A stretch of DNA of 64,000 nucleotides from a virus: positions 1 to 64,000 of the IMG/VR virus record IMGVR_UViG_3300005099_000066; one strand, 5' to 3'. Positions 16,473 to 56,228 of the stretch are shown here, in pieces. The stretch's first letter is position 1. Every line of letters begins with the position of its first letter. Made by a program: the position numbers and the translations under genes. The notes beneath the pieces are model-generated. The model saw only the letters and a list, made by a program, of their open reading frames with translations, was not told where the DNA came from and searched no databases.

Positions 16473-17825
16473 CTATTTGGTTTTATCAAACACAGTCAGA
16501 AATCTTGGAGAGGACATATAGCCAAACGAATGTAGAGTAATAGCATCTGAGTAGATTCTGTAGCCTATATCAGTTCTAAAATAACCATCGGGTATATGTA
16601 TATGATTTAACAGATTTTTATATGCCTGTAAAATAGCAGGCTCAAGTTTTGGATGTTTTCCTACAGACACAATAGCTCTTCCATGTGAAGGAACAATTCT
16701 GTAAACTCCATCTTCATCTTTGTAAATTCCAGCTGGAATATGTTTGTTAATAAAATCTGGCTTGTCAAGATAAACAGGACTGTTAGCAGATTCTTCTAAA
16801 ACACAAGCAAATGGATAACCTTTAGCATTGTAAGCAACTCCAACTAACCAATCTGAATCAATATCTACTTTTTTCATTAAGCCTTTTGGAATATCATGAA
16901 ATATCTTTCCGAGGGGAGTTCTTATAGCTGGCAACATTATTAAAATATGTGGATAACCAAATCTTGCTGTATATTCAAGAAAATAAGGTTTGCCATCTTC
17001 ATATGATACAATCGCATTTATGTCTATATAATTTACACCATAGTATTTTGAATACCATCTTTCTCTTCCCTTATCACCAAACATTAATTGAAATAATTTG
17101 TCTGAATCATCATATCCATTATTGTTGAATATTACTGTTCCCATCTCACCTGTCATTGGTCCTATTTCTCCTGGGAACAATCTTTTGTGCTCAAAATTCA
17201 TATTCCATGGGAATACATATCCATTTGGAGAAACAAATAAGCCAATAGCTACTTCAACACCTTCTATATATTCTGTAATTACAAGTTCTGTTGAATCATC
17301 TACACCTTTCTCAATTAAACCTTTCAAGTGGTCTATGGCATCATCTTTTCCAAATGCAACATATGTTTTAATAGAAGAATCTCCTACTTTGTTGACTTTA
17401 ATTACAGGTCTGGAGAATTCTCCTGATTTTATATCACTAATTGCCTCTTTTATAGAAGAGTAAATTTTTGATTTGGGAAAATAATCATACAGATTTTTGT
17501 CTTTAGCAAACATTCTTTCATTTTCCAGCCTTTCACCTATTGAACTTGTTCCCCAGACTGTTTTTCCTTCTTTTCTCAGTTTATCAACTGTTTGTCCCCA
17601 TCCCATATCAGGAAATACAATAACATCAACTTTGTCTATATATGGTTCCCAGTTGTCTATTCTTTTTACACCAAAGTCTTCCAAAATCCCTTTTCCATAC
17701 AATAAGTCTGCCTGTTCAGGATGTGCTCTTTGCCAAACTGTGTAGTAGTAAACCTCTTCACCTTCATTTGCAAGTCTAATAGCAATTGCTTCAGATAAAC
17801 CTGTGTCAACTATAAGATATTTCAT
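16473..17825 (-). CDS. PurD-like ATP-grasp ligase 1
   Basis: 450 residues. The N-terminal Rossmann-like part (MKYLIVDTG, then AIRLANEGEEVYYYT) and the following ATP-grasp region (PVIKVNKVGDSS; ITEYIEGVEVAIGLFVS; DINAIV, then FLEYTARFGYPH) follow the order of phosphoribosylamine-glycine ligase (PurD). ATP-grasp enzymes form amide-type bonds by way of an acyl phosphate. AGGAGG seven bases upstream fixes ATG 17825. A second, divergent copy lies 358 nt upstream. The substrate is unknown: a nucleotide, base, sugar or protein target are all possible. It is oddly placed inside the late structural operon. Confidence 0.8.
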   Translation of the reverse strand: MKYLIVDTGLSEAIAIRLANEGEEVYYYTVWQRAHPEQADLLYGKGILEDFGVKRIDNWEPYIDKVDVIVFPDMGWGQTVDKLRKEGKTVWGTSSIGERLENERMFAKDKNLYDYFPKSKIYSSIKEAISDIKSGEFSRPVIKVNKVGDSSIKTYVAFGKDDAIDHLKGLIEKGVDDSTELVITEYIEGVEVAIGLFVSPNGYVFPWNMNFEHKRLFPGEIGPMTGEMGTVIFNNNGYDDSDKLFQLMFGDKGRERWYSKYYGVNYIDINAIVSYEDGKPYFLEYTARFGYPHILIMLPAIRTPLGKIFHDIPKGLMKKVDIDSDWLVGVAYNAKGYPFACVLEESANSPVYLDKPDFINKHIPAGIYKDEDGVYRIVPSHGRAIVSVGKHPKLEPAILQAYKNLLNHIHIPDGYFRTDIGYRIYSDAITLHSFGYMSSPRFLTVFDKTK

Positions 17826-17827
17826 TA

Positions 17828-18172
17828 TTAGTCCTCCTGGAATTCTACATTTATATAGTTGAGCCAATCTGTAGGGAATGTTTTCATAAGATAATCCTGT
17901 ATTGTTTGTCTTATAAATTCACTTATTTTTCTCCTTCTTATGTAAATGTCTATATAGGAATCTTCATTCATTTTGTCAACACGAGGTTCTACAACTATAC
18001 ATGATTCACTTCCAACTTGTTCCTCTGCAAATGTTACAAAATCCTTCAGAAGTGCAATAAATACATCTTTGTCAACATTTATGCTATTTACAAAGTTTTC
18101 GAAGTCATCTTTATTACTCACAATTACAGTTGTTTTATCTGTCAAAAATGAAACAAATGTTCCGTAATCCAT
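17828..18172 (-). CDS. Hypothetical protein between the two ATP-grasp genes
   Basis: 114 residues, alternating strands and helices, with the stretch SYIDIYIRRRKISEFIRQ. No family recognised. GGAGGTGG precedes ATG 18172. It is packed between the two ATP-grasp genes (gaps of 2 and 10 nt), so it probably belongs to the same functional module. Confidence 0.6.
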   Translation of the reverse strand: MDYGTFVSFLTDKTTVIVSNKDDFENFVNSINVDKDVFIALLKDFVTFAEEQVGSESCIVVEPRVDKMNEDSYIDIYIRRRKISEFIRQTIQDYLMKTFPTDWLNYINVEFQED

Positions 18173-18182
18173 GTTCCACCTC

Positions 18183-19424
18183 CTAATACAAAATTCCTTC
18201 AGTTTGAGAAATCCATTGTTTTATTGTGCTAATTAAATCCTTATCATAAAACTTACCCTCAAAGTCTATCCAGTTGTTTGCTATGTCCAGAATTTTCTTC
18301 CAGGCATTGTCAACTGTTTTGTCATTTACCATGATTAAGCCAACTAAATCATCTCCTGGAATGAAATAATAATTATTCTTTACTTTAGCAACTCTTCTAA
18401 ATTCCCATTCTCTTAAACACTCCATATCTGGATTATCAAACATCTTTCCAGTTATTTTTAACCATTCGTCAGTATTTTTAGTAGCCAAATACAAACCAAC
18501 AAGCCAATTACCATTTACATTCCAGGGCACAGATTTTGCCTTTCCTGTTGCAATATGATATAGAAAGTCTGTATAATTTTTCAGGTATTTAGTCCAGAAT
18601 AAAGACAATGACTGAGCAAATCTGGAAGTAATATCAGTAACATATAGATTTTTATTTTTATCCATAAATCCTTCCAGAGAAAAGGGACCAGTGTAATTTG
18701 ATGCTTCCTTTTGACTAAATATCTTTTCTAATATTCCATTCCACAAAGATTTTTCAACTATCTTTAAAATATAGCCTGTTCCAGTAGCAAGTCCTACAGT
18801 GTATGGTTTTAGAATTTTGCCTTTGGATACCCAGACATCACATCCCACTTCAATCATATTTCTCATGTTTCTTTGTATTATTATAGGAGAAGTCTCGGAG
18901 AAGGGACCAATTGCACTTCTTAATTCTTCCAGCTTTGTTTTAGTATTACTATCATCTTTGGCATACCATGTGTCAATATTACCTCTAAAAATAGAATCAA
19001 CTTTTACCCAACAATCGTAATTGTATTGTTTAATTAAAACATAGGCTTCATCTACACCTTTAGCAATTTTGTATTCAGGAACTTTAACACCTATCTTATC
19101 AAGAAATTTGTAGCCTCTTGATTTGGAAATTTCATACTGTTCTAATTCTGCTCCAGACACGACATAATTTTTCTCAGATTTTAAGTAATTCACAAAATGC
19201 CCCATTCCAACATCAACAAATACAAGCAAATCGTAATTGTCTAACTCTCCAAAATCATATATTCTTCTGAATGAATCAAAACCCATACCTATTGCATATT
19301 CTTCCAGTCTTGGAAAGCCTTTTGAAATAGGAGTAAATAAATACACATCATGCCCATCAAAAGCCATTCTTGTGGCTTGTCCAAGTCCTGCAAATCCCTC
19401 TGTATCAACTACTAATATTTTCAT
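18183..19424 (-). CDS. PurD-like ATP-grasp ligase 2
   Basis: 413 residues, a diverged paralogue of the first ligase: MKILVVDTEGFAGLGQATRM, then GHDVYLFTP, and a matching VFVDVGMGHFVNYL segment (compare VFPDMGWGQTVDKL in ligase 1). The ATP-grasp body (CWVKVDSIFRGN; IIIQRNMRNMIEVGCDVWVS; YVTDITSRFAQ) is recognisable but the final metal- and ATP-binding Asp/Glu/Asn set is less clear, so it may have a different substrate. ATG 19424 overlaps the stop of the deoxyribosyltransferase-like gene (ATGA). Confidence 0.72.
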   Translation of the reverse strand: MKILVVDTEGFAGLGQATRMAFDGHDVYLFTPISKGFPRLEEYAIGMGFDSFRRIYDFGELDNYDLLVFVDVGMGHFVNYLKSEKNYVVSGAELEQYEISKSRGYKFLDKIGVKVPEYKIAKGVDEAYVLIKQYNYDCWVKVDSIFRGNIDTWYAKDDSNTKTKLEELRSAIGPFSETSPIIIQRNMRNMIEVGCDVWVSKGKILKPYTVGLATGTGYILKIVEKSLWNGILEKIFSQKEASNYTGPFSLEGFMDKNKNLYVTDITSRFAQSLSLFWTKYLKNYTDFLYHIATGKAKSVPWNVNGNWLVGLYLATKNTDEWLKITGKMFDNPDMECLREWEFRRVAKVKNNYYFIPGDDLVGLIMVNDKTVDNAWKKILDIANNWIDFEGKFYDKDLISTIKQWISQTEGILY

Positions 19425-21065: not shown

Positions 21066-22925
21066 TTATTTGTCTAATTCTCTTATTCGAGAAGGAATAT
21101 TCACTCCTTCTCTTCCTCCTCCAATAATTTTTGTCCCTCCAAGGGGATTTGATGGGGGAACTAACTGTCTGAGGGGAGATTCCACTCTCGCAGTTGAAAC
21201 TGTTGAAGCCTTTCCAACTGCGAGTTTTCTTGCTTCTGCTTCAGATAAAGTTATTGAATCAGTTTTAGAGTCTATATGAAACAGTTTATTAAACCAAAAG
21301 ACCAAACCAACTATTGAATCAGCAATATCCTGATATCCCGTTATTACTCTGGGCTTTGAAGAGCCTGATGGAGGCTGGAGGTTTTTAAATTGTGAAATTG
21401 CCAAATATGATTCTTCCTGGTTTGGAAATATTATTGCTGGAGGATTAGAATAAAACAGATTTTTTGCACTGATATAATCTTGCTGATTTACAGGTTTATC
21501 ATCCCATTCTTTAGCAAGATGTTTAAAAGCAGCAGTGTTCCATTTGTCTGACTTTATTTTTGTAATATTCAAATACTTTGCAAGTCTACCTATTACATCA
21601 TAATAATTCCATAAATCTACTGATACATTCTTTTGTTTATCTGTTTGCCAGACTAAAATTGCATCAACTATTAAGAGTGGAGTTCCTCTTTGTATTAAGC
21701 CATGTCCTATTGCAACTGCTGCCATACAGTCAACTTCTCCTGGGTCTATACCCATAAAGTATTCGTATGGCTCTGGTTTTCTTGTAAATCTTAAGGTATC
21801 AGGTTTGTAAACAAATTTGTTTCCATTAGCAGTTTTTATAATTTCACTTTCGGCAATTACAAGAGGCAATCTGTTTTTATCAACAAAAACATCCTCATCC
21901 AAAACTTGTAAAACAGGCATCCATCTTTCTACAGAATATCCTACTGGAAGGGCAAGATATTTAGCTACAGCTGAATTAAAATCTCTGTCAAATTGAGTTT
22001 TGAAATCCATGGGGACATCAACTTCTAAATCAAATTCTTTCACATAAATTCTAAAAGTTTCTTTGCTAAAGAATTTCTTTGGTTTGACTTGCCATGTAAA
22101 ATAGTGAGAAGTATAGGCATTATCATATTTTCCATTTTTGACTTCTTCATGTAAAATATATGTAAAATCATTCTTTTTATCGAGTCTGGGGAATGATGTT
22201 ACAAGTCCCAGGTATGGAAGCTCTCTTGTTGAAGTTGTAGCTGTATTAAAAATCTTTTCAGCATTATGGATTCCAGATTGTGAAACATGTCCAGAAGCTT
22301 CATCCATAACAAAAGCAATAAGAGTCAAACCTTCCCATGATTCATTTTTGGAGGGAACTGATATGAATTCTACATTTATTGAACTGAATTTTATTGTATT
22401 TCCAGCTATATGAATTTTTGGCAATGACCTATCACATATATGTGAATTAACTATTTTTCCATGTTCCTCAATAGGATATTTGTTGAAAAATTTTGAATTC
22501 TTTATTCTGGCCTTTACTCTGTCAAACATTTTCTGGGACTGATTCTGGTTAGTTGCGACAGTTATAATTGATATAGCATCTGCTTTTGATACTCCAAAGA
22601 AATCATGAGGGTTTGGTTCAAGAAAGTGTAGAAGATAAATAACATAAGTAATTATGTTAGCAGAAACAAGTCCCTTTCCACTTCCCTTTCCCCAAAGAAG
22701 AACAGATAAATTTGGTCTTGTTTCAGGTGTAAAAAATAAGACAGGATCCCCTTTCACTCCACCTTCTCCAATAATAGCAAGAGATTCTCTGGTTTGGACT
22801 TCAGATAATTTTACCTCATTTAAATCATTATACAAAAATTCAAGAAATGGAAGAACATTGTGTGTTGGCTTTTTGACTTCAGATTTATTCTCACTTATTA
22901 GTATTTTTCTCCAATCAGAACTCAT
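21066..22925 (-). CDS. terL: Terminase large subunit
   Basis: 619 residues, close to the usual length. The N-terminal ATPase has a Walker A-like LLWGKGSGKG (about 76-85; Gly replaces the usual Thr/Ser after the Lys) and a Walker B LIAFVMDEAS (about 205-215). The C-terminal RNase H-like nuclease shows FMGIDPGEVDCMAAVAIG (about 394-411) and a late acidic DIADSIVGL segment. It would package DNA into the prohead and cut concatemers. AAGGAG lies seven bases before ATG 22925, within the end of a small Lys-rich gene. No small subunit was recognised nearby. The C-terminal ~60 residues are Gly/Pro/Arg-rich and probably disordered. Confidence 0.9.
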   Translation of the reverse strand: MSSDWRKILISENKSEVKKPTHNVLPFLEFLYNDLNEVKLSEVQTRESLAIIGEGGVKGDPVLFFTPETRPNLSVLLWGKGSGKGLVSANIITYVIYLLHFLEPNPHDFFGVSKADAISIITVATNQNQSQKMFDRVKARIKNSKFFNKYPIEEHGKIVNSHICDRSLPKIHIAGNTIKFSSINVEFISVPSKNESWEGLTLIAFVMDEASGHVSQSGIHNAEKIFNTATTSTRELPYLGLVTSFPRLDKKNDFTYILHEEVKNGKYDNAYTSHYFTWQVKPKKFFSKETFRIYVKEFDLEVDVPMDFKTQFDRDFNSAVAKYLALPVGYSVERWMPVLQVLDEDVFVDKNRLPLVIAESEIIKTANGNKFVYKPDTLRFTRKPEPYEYFMGIDPGEVDCMAAVAIGHGLIQRGTPLLIVDAILVWQTDKQKNVSVDLWNYYDVIGRLAKYLNITKIKSDKWNTAAFKHLAKEWDDKPVNQQDYISAKNLFYSNPPAIIFPNQEESYLAISQFKNLQPPSGSSKPRVITGYQDIADSIVGLVFWFNKLFHIDSKTDSITLSEAEARKLAVGKASTVSTARVESPLRQLVPPSNPLGGTKIIGGGREGVNIPSRIRELDK

Positions 22926-23076
22926 TCAAAATCTCCTTTTTCAGCTTATCCTTTTCTCTCTTTCTGTTGTATTGCTTCTTTTTGTTTGGTATGATTTTTG
23001 TTGGTGGAGGAACTTTCTTTCTTATTGATTTGATAATTTCCAAACCAGAAATTTTACTTTTCCTTTTCATTTTCAT
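22915..23076 (-). CDS. Small Lys-rich protein
   Basis: 53 residues from ATG 23076, with Lys and Arg making up about 40 percent, and no recognisable domain. It begins inside the out-of-frame end of the primase and ends 11 nt inside the terminase gene, so it fills the gap between them and would couple their translation. The ribosome binding site is weak and the composition is AT-driven, so it is only probable. It could be a DNA-binding peptide. Confidence 0.4.
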   Translation of the reverse strand: MKMKRKSKISGLEIIKSIRKKVPPPTKIIPNKKKQYNRKREKDKLKKEILNEF

Positions 23077-23312
23077 TAAAAGGTGAATAAAATACAAAAC
23101 CTTTGGTGGGGTGAAATTTAATCAATTCCAAACCAGAATAGTATGGAAATATATATTCAAGTATTTTGCCATGTAAATCAGCAGGGTCTTTATCTTCAGG
23201 TAGCAAAGCAACAAAGACATCATTTATAAATGACTGAAGTTTCCTGCATAATTCAAAAGCCTCTTTTTGAGCATCCCCATCTAAAGCAACAACAACAGTT
23301 TCAGGAGAGTAA
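23054..23312 (-). other. +1-frame continuation of the primase (TOPRIM DxD and C-terminus)
   Basis: This frame opens just after a TAG (stop ending near 23313) and has no ATG, GTG or TTG start at its beginning, but encodes SPETVVVALDGDAQKEAFEL and then LLPEDKDPADL, ending at TAA 23056-23054. DGD supplies the TOPRIM metal-binding aspartates missing from the upstream frame. The two frames overlap for only five codons (AAC TGT TAC TCT CC/TGA), the window in which a +1 shift must happen. Directly upstream is a 7-bp hairpin (23311-23317 with 23323-23329). Confidence 0.8.
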
Positions 23313-23978
23313 CAGTTCTAACAACTGTTTGTGTGTAATTGTTTTTGATAATAGAGCAACTGACGGACAATTGTATTCTTTGTATACTGATAAAGCATCC
23401 ATAATTCCTTCAGTAATAAAAAGAGGTTTTCCCAATCCAAGTGAAGTAATGGAAAATTTGAAGAGAGGTTTTTTCACTCCAGATGGATTCAGAAAGTCAT
23501 GTTTACCTACTTTTCTTAAAACATAATAATCCATATCACCTGCCCATGTATAGGATTTAAACATAAGCCATATATCAGAATTTGTTTTGTTAACAACTAT
23601 GCTGTAAAATTCCCTTGGGATTTTTGTTTTTAAATCTTCAATAGATATTCCAAGTCTCATAGCTAAATACATTTCAGAAATCAATTGTGCTTGTCCTGCT
23701 ACTTTCTGATAACCATTTGGAAAACTTAACTTGACTTCTTCAACTTCTTCTACTTTTTCGAAATCAACTATTTTTGAAGAAACAGACATAATTGTCTGAA
23801 CATAGTGTTTGGGCAAAATGGACAAACTTCCTGATTTACCACATCTGAAACAATGAAAGACTCCTTTTCGAGGATTCACATACAGATGATATTTTGAGTC
23901 AGGAGGCTTTCCTATTTCAACACAGAAGGGACAATTGAATCTTATTTCTCCTGACGAAGTCAATTTAAAATTAACCAA
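23301..23978 (-). CDS. dnaG: DNA primase, N-terminal zinc finger and first part of TOPRIM (interrupted)
   Basis: 225 residues from a TTG start (GAGGAGG eight bases upstream). CPFC (16-19) and CFRC (43-46) form a CHC2-type zinc finger that binds template DNA. LFITEGIMDALSV (E190) is the first TOPRIM motif. The frame then stops at TGA 23303-23301, before the essential DxD motif. That motif, VVVALDGDA, and the typical LPEDKDPADL follow at once in the +1 frame to 23054. Joined, the product would be about 307 residues. Either translation shifts +1 at TCC-TGA or the gene is broken by an indel (real or a sequencing error). It is the first gene of the leftward operon, apart from the other replication genes. 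Confidence 0.85.
   Translation of the reverse strand: MVNFKLTSSGEIRFNCPFCVEIGKPPDSKYHLYVNPRKGVFHCFRCGKSGSLSILPKHYVQTIMSVSSKIVDFEKVEEVEEVKLSFPNGYQKVAGQAQLISEMYLAMRLGISIEDLKTKIPREFYSIVVNKTNSDIWLMFKSYTWAGDMDYYVLRKVGKHDFLNPSGVKKPLFKFSITSLGLGKPLFITEGIMDALSVYKEYNCPSVALLSKTITHKQLLELLLS
23311..23329 (-). promoter_or_regulatory. Hairpin beside the primase +1 frameshift site
   Basis: AACAGTT and AACTGTT are perfect inverted repeats of 7 bp separated by a 5-nt loop. In the mRNA the stem ends 5 nt before the TCC-TGA where the 0 frame stops. The position suggests a possible recoding stimulator, but upstream stems are less usual than downstream ones, and the sequence alone does not prove a role. Confidence 0.4.
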
Positions 23979-24069: not shown

Positions 24070-24110
24070 GAATATATAATATAATATCTCTGATATTATA
24101 TTATATATTC
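24070..24110. repeat. Perfect 19-bp inverted repeat (3-nt spacer)
   Basis: GAATATATAATATAATATC at 24070-24088 and its exact reverse complement at 24092-24110 flank TCT. All but the end pairs are A/T. The repeat could melt easily (origin), bind a dimeric protein, or form a hairpin in RNA read from either strand. Confidence 0.9.
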
Positions 24111-24145
24111 CGTAAAGTAATAATATATAATATTATTACTTTGCG
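24111..24145. repeat. Second inverted repeat, 13 perfect pairs extended to 16
   Basis: AAAGTAATAATAT (24114-24126) and ATATTATTACTTT (24130-24142) pair perfectly around ATA. Three outer positions (CGT/GCG) extend the stem with one G-T pair. It directly abuts the first repeat. Confidence 0.88.
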
Positions 24146-24167
24146 AAATTATTATATTATATAATTT
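24146..24167. repeat. Third, imperfect AT inverted repeat
   Basis: AAATTAT and ATAATTT (7 bp each) flank eight A/T bases immediately after the second repeat. In such AT-rich DNA this one alone would mean little; it matters only as the third in a row. Confidence 0.5.
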
Positions 24168-24234
24168 ACATATTATAAAAACTTTATATAGGACAGCTCA
24201 GCAAATCTTTTTCTATTTTTCAGTTTGCTTTCAA

Positions 24235-54992: not shown

Positions 54993-56228
54993 TTGAAAGC
55001 AAACATTGAAAAATATATTTTGAATACTATGTTAATTTCTCCTTCACATTGTATTGATTTAATAGATTTGGGAGTGGACAAATATGTTGAACATCCTATA
55101 ATAAAACCAATTGTTTCTTTCATATCCTCCTATTATAGACAACACAAAAAGATTCCTCCTGCTGATTTGATAGTAGAAAATTTCCCACAACAAAAATACT
55201 TTCTTTCTGAGATTGTTAACCTTGAGCCTGCTCCTGATTGGGCTGTTTCTGAAGTAGAAAAATTTGTAAAAACGGTAAAGGTTCAGAAATTAACTGAATT
55301 TATTCTAACTAATTCAAGCAATCCGAAAATAACTCCTGAAGAGTTGTGGGAAAAGGGAAGAGAAATTTTGAGATTAAGAACTCCTTCAAGACTTGGAGTT
55401 GATTATTTTTCTGAAATTCCAAGACCATATTATGAAAAATTTCATCCAGAAAGTTTGGAGAACATTATTCCTACTGGACTTGTAAAGCTTGATGAATTGA
55501 TGTATGGAGGAATGAGGAAAGGATGGTTTGGATTTGTTATGGGTGGAACTGGAATGGGAAAATCTGCTCTGTTAATAAATTTTACGGCAAATGCTTTGTT
55601 GTTCAATAAAAAGGTTTTATACATTTCTTTGGAAATGTCTGTTGATGAAGTTATGCTGAGAATTGATGCTAAACTGACAGGCAAAACAATGGAAGAATTA
55701 TCTAATCCAAGTATGGATAATTATTTGAGGCAATTTCTTTCTATGGTAAAACAGAAATATACAGAAGCAAATTTGAGATTGATTTACTTTCCTTCGAAGA
55801 GTATAACTGTGAACAAAATTCCTTCAATCATAGAATCTTTTCAGATGATAAATTTCAAACCAGATTTGCTTGTTATTGACTTTGCTGATTACTTTGCTCC
55901 CCTTTCTAAAAGAAATTCGGCATGGGAAGAGGTAGTTGATACATTTCAGGTTCTGCCAGGATTTGCTAAAGAATATGATATGGCAATCTGGACTGCTACT
56001 GAAATAGGAAAAGCAAAAATGTATAACGAACAGGCAACAATAGATACTATGTATGGTGGTTCAGGAAAATCTTTTGGTGCTGATATTATTTTGGGAATAT
56101 CTGCTACTAAAGAGGAAGCAAGGCTTGGTGGTTTAAGATTAACTGTGTCGAAATTTAGACATGGAAGAAGTTTAATTGACATTCCTGTGTTTTTTGATAG
56201 AGCAAGAATGTTAATAAAAACCTTATAA
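54993..56228 (+). CDS. dnaB: DnaB-like replicative helicase
   Basis: 411 residues from TTG 54993, nine bases after AGGAGGTG. A helical N-domain (about 1-120) is followed by a RecA-fold ATPase: Walker A GGTGMGKSAL (K190), EMSVDEVMLR, Walker B LLVIDFADYF, WTATEIGK and TVSKFRHGRS (arginine-finger region). It unwinds the fork; the primase partner is encoded in the other arm. Confidence 0.87.
   Translation: MKANIEKYILNTMLISPSHCIDLIDLGVDKYVEHPIIKPIVSFISSYYRQHKKIPPADLIVENFPQQKYFLSEIVNLEPAPDWAVSEVEKFVKTVKVQKLTEFILTNSSNPKITPEELWEKGREILRLRTPSRLGVDYFSEIPRPYYEKFHPESLENIIPTGLVKLDELMYGGMRKGWFGFVMGGTGMGKSALLINFTANALLFNKKVLYISLEMSVDEVMLRIDAKLTGKTMEELSNPSMDNYLRQFLSMVKQKYTEANLRLIYFPSKSITVNKIPSIIESFQMINFKPDLLVIDFADYFAPLSKRNSAWEEVVDTFQVLPGFAKEYDMAIWTATEIGKAKMYNEQATIDTMYGGSGKSFGADIILGISATKEEARLGGLRLTVSKFRHGRSLIDIPVFFDRARMLIKTL

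Follow-up and report, generated by a model that had tools for sequence, protein, structure and literature searches.

How does a virus make its primase when the gene for it, at positions 23054-23978, is divided between two reading frames at a UGA stop codon? The break may reflect programmed +1 frameshifting, loss of the gene in the virus population, or a one-off insertion or deletion in an otherwise ordinary gene. The stretch of DNA analysed here (the window) comprises bases 1-64000 of a virus record of 76,948 bases.

Layout of the split gene

The features at the break are the following:
23301-23978, minus strand: 0-frame part of the primase, with the CPFC...CFRC zinc finger and the first TOPRIM motif ITEGIMDA, ending in CTC-TCC-TGA
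23054-23317, minus strand: +1-frame part of the primase, with the catalytic DGD and the DPADL motif, ending in TAA at 23056-23054
23304-23317, minus strand: overlap of 14 nt that is open in both frames and within which the frame change must fall

The 0-frame part is an open reading frame of 225 amino acids, which begins with TTG at 23978, has a Shine-Dalgarno-like GAGGAGG ahead of its start, and stops at the TGA at 23303-23301 in the context CUC-UCC-UGA-A. The +1 frame is bounded at its 5' side by TAG at 23320-23318 and is free of stops from 23317 to the TAA; its sequence, PETVVVALDGDA...LPEDKDPADL, includes VVVALDGDA. No ATG, GTG or TTG occurs in the +1 frame before 23206, that is, none ahead of the catalytic D.D motif, which rules out a start codon of its own for the C-terminal half. 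Codon scores pass from frame 0 to frame +1 within 23317-23304. A frame break of this form, with the 0 frame ending at UCC-UGA and the DGD and C-terminal motifs continuing in the +1 frame, had been described in the first-pass annotation and is borne out here. A +1 step at the UGA (TGAA taken as one step) gives exactly the 307 residues proposed there for the joined product, with the junction LLELLLS-ETVVVALDGDAQK. The split of the primase between two frames is genuine in the assembled sequence and far above chance.

By codon usage, scanned over the full 76,948 bases, the primase is the only gene with a clear interruption, and no clearly coding segment other than 23317-23057 is without a start and at the same time overlaps the end of a second coding frame. 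Elsewhere in the contig the genes are tidy, with starts near the beginning of open stretches. A generally poor assembly is rejected as an explanation, because the scan shows no further clearly interrupted gene.

Protein identity, relatives and genome context

The N-terminal half matches the DNA primase family phrog_47 with an E value of 4.5e-18. Relatives were gathered by three scans of IMG/VR, a DNA-motif scan and tblastn against phage records, and their profile matches the N-terminal half at positions 17-239 (134 bits, E = 4e-40) and the C-terminal half at positions 245-289 (25 bits, E = 6e-7 to 3e-9). No other six-frame segment of the contig matches the profile significantly; in that comparison the two halves have E = 4e-40 and 6e-7. 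When joined, they score 167-172 bits and align back to back, and the junction in the profile lies in one continuous TOPRIM domain. The earlier claim that both frames encode one primase is therefore supported by a profile that spans the two halves as a single protein.

The zinc ribbon residues C16, C19, C43 and C46 are invariant in 12 aligned sequences, and the Pfam model Zn_ribbon_DnaG gives 19.5 bits, under its cut-off of 24.9. After joining of the frames, E190 and D233/D235 are conserved, residues that sit in different frames in the contig. The aligned family matches the solved DnaG structure 2au3 over positions 10-279 (E = 1e-37), and T7 primases are also matched. The structure predicted for the joined protein (pLDDT 69), for which annotated phage records were left out of the underlying alignment, finds T7 and DnaG primases at modest confidence; the prediction confirms the fold class but does not discriminate among explanations of the break. 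Judged from its sequence, the gene probably encodes an ordinary stand-alone DnaG-type phage primase with zinc ribbon and TOPRIM. The phrog_47 stand-alone primases of Maribacter phages Colly_1/Molly_1 and Pseudomonas phage QdP_Psa3 have, as here, a zinc ribbon of the form CPFC..CxRC, the TOPRIM motifs EG..., D.D and DP, a length of about 300-330 amino acids and no helicase domain. Their genes are single open frames, whereas here the frame changes after TOPRIM motif 1 and before the D.D motif.

All 30 distinct phage relatives that cover both halves carry the zinc finger and TOPRIM in one uninterrupted frame, so that the shift site and frame change are found in none of them, although all are distant (about 20-31% identity, the best being about 31% to the joined window protein). 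The first-pass annotation had leaned towards recoding, a preference against which these uninterrupted, if distant, relatives speak. No closer relative (above about 31% identity) was found in IMG/VR with the primase N-terminal half, the terminase or the DNA polymerase, and the primase N-terminal half gave nothing above about 31% identity when GTDB genomes, phage records and plasmids were searched, in collections from which near-identical records may have been missing. Neither IMG/VR nor GTDB contained a match to gapped DNA patterns across the shift site.

The 76.9 kb contig yielded no second primase or TOPRIM gene. Also encoded in it are a DnaB-like helicase, PolA (a family A polymerase), SSB, a UvsX-like recombinase, SbcCD and a RuvC-like resolvase, as well as ribonucleotide reductase and thymidylate synthase. 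Downstream of the primase lies one further feature:
21066-22925, minus strand: terminase large subunit-like gene (by tblastn, 84% of the query aligns to Streptomyces phage terminases at about 25% identity, E = 7e-15)

The primase at 23301-23978 opens a leftward operon beside this terminase, and the DnaB-like helicase (54993-56225) and the other replication genes lie about 31 kb away; in phage QdP_Psa3, unlike here, the primase adjoins the helicase. Between the leftward primase and terminase genes and the rightward genes, a cluster of near-perfect AT-rich inverted repeats is found at 24070-24168, with 19-nt perfect arms around a 3-nt loop and 20-nt arms that are 90% complementary. It is also observed that two genes on the minus strand, at 16473-17867 and 18183-19424, encode neighbouring proteins with similar beginnings and adjoin repetitive, apparently structural genes, which is an unusual location. 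The product of 16473-17867 matches the ATP-grasp and C domains of PurD (GARS), and that of 18183-19424 has no Pfam match.

Sequence of the shift site

To the resemblance between the site and known shift sites, a simulation of indels gives a measure of chance, with 40,000 one-base gains and 40,000 two-base losses placed in the contig's own genes. The resulting stop context is UCC-UGA in 2.5% of these and one of UCC-, CCC-, CUU-, UUU- or GCG-UGA in about 6.5%, and an overlap of six codons or fewer results in 15%. The match to UCC-UGA is thus compatible with chance, as the first-pass annotation had allowed when it remarked that it may be coincidence. The short overlap, cited there as expected for recoding or for an indel, falls within the range of random indels.

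It had also been remarked that the site has no homopolymer. This is correct, but a short repeat, the CTCTC tract at 23309-23305, does lie inside the overlap. Homopolymers are the usual source of indel errors, and their absence at the site counts against an indel. Slippage in CTCTC would shift the frame by two, which is only suggestive.

Neither of the known bacterial and phage shift contexts before a slow stop (CUU-U, CCC-U) is present at the site, and no Shine-Dalgarno-like or purine-rich stimulator is found in the 30 nt upstream. Folding of the downstream region is unremarkable compared with shuffled sequences (z = +0.06 and +1.19 for pseudoknot-free folds). Just upstream of the stop is the hairpin to which the first-pass annotation had drawn attention:
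23311-23329, minus strand: 7-bp hairpin AACAGTT-gttag-AACTGTT

The hairpin is present as described, but it is no more stable than shuffled sequence: its energy is -6.7 kcal/mol (z = -0.95), and 30 of 200 shuffles fold equally well or better. Stems of this kind occur at 0.66% of the contig's positions.

Explanations of the frame break

In programmed +1 frameshifting, a fraction of ribosomes would shift at UCC-UGA and yield the full-length primase, in a dose set by the speed of termination, on the model of release factor 2 and the structural genes of Listeria phages. We regard this as unlikely, even though the frame change has the right sign, the +1 half is preserved in what is the sole primase found in the contig, and the rare codons UCC and CUC (6.1 and 4.0 per thousand in the contig) stand directly before the UGA. 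UCC-UGA is the principal +1 shift site of animal antizymes, identical in all six nucleotides to the site here, and CCC-UGA is the +1 site in Listeria phages PSA, A118 and A500 (2016 review, PMC5009743); the genuine antizyme site also counts against reading the break as an indel. The antizyme system, however, is eukaryotic and polyamine-sensing, with stimulators and a site that are phylogenetically conserved, none of which is shown for the primase site. In tsh of the three Listeria phages, as in this likewise low-GC phage, the change to +1 falls at the codon next to the UGA, but there the site is CCC-UGA in a structural protein with two useful products and laboratory evidence, to which UCC-UGA in the primase has nothing comparable. 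The autoregulatory shift of release factor 2 has in common with the primase a +1 step at an in-frame UGA; its site is CUU-UGA-C, in which C nearly always follows UGA (PMC5009743), whereas the primase site lacks CUU-U and an internal Shine-Dalgarno and has A after the UGA. A tRNA reading UCC would be expected to re-pair poorly on CCU. No bacterial or phage case of UCC-UGA shifting was found in the review (PMC5009743) or in a literature search, whose only full match concerned human cells. Together with the lack of a Shine-Dalgarno-like stimulator or downstream structure and the absence of the break from all 30 relatives (distant, at most about 31% identity), these points argue against recoding. 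Since the relatives are distant, they weigh less against a recoding that arose recently in this lineage alone. It is likewise quite improbable that the catalytic half is reached only through a +1 shift at this antizyme-like UCC-UGA and that the dose of primase senses release-factor activity.

A genuine pseudogene in the virus population, with the phage relying on the host DnaG or on a primase outside the contig, is very improbable. Such a loss is favoured by the possible incompleteness of the contig and by the existence of phages that rely on a host primase. On the other hand, any loss would have to be very recent, since decay has gone no further in the +1 half and neither the zinc finger nor any catalytic residue has been lost; the phage moreover retains its own DnaB-like helicase.

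The break is thus very probably a one-off indel in an ordinary DnaG-type phage primase, an error being likelier than a mutation. One base gained or two bases lost within 23317-23304 would have broken the gene, more likely as an assembly or sequencing error than as a true mutation of the sampled virus, and the intact gene would run in a single frame through both halves, like every relative found. What is observed is the frame change, the homology of both halves to one family, the uninterrupted frame of the relatives and the lack of other clear breaks in the contig; that an indel and not recoding is the cause is inferred. Because the other genes in the contig look intact, a single event is indicated, and either a rare assembly error or a strain mutation would fit one isolated break in about 77 kb. 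The +1 half has kept its coding score, its freedom from stops and its catalytic residues, and therefore the break is either recent or not real. An error is favoured over a mutation because this appears to be the only primase of a contig whose replication set is otherwise full. A simple length change fits the scores of junction models that differ by one residue, which are much the same (167-172 bits); as a test of one base gained against two lost, junction length gives similar scores (167-169 bits).

A break that falls on a known shift hexamer is only weakly indicative of recoding, given that about 1 in 15 random indels in this genome would reach one of five known +1 contexts. If recoding were true, a replication enzyme would be under frameshift control, and UCC-UGA shifting would be extended to phage.
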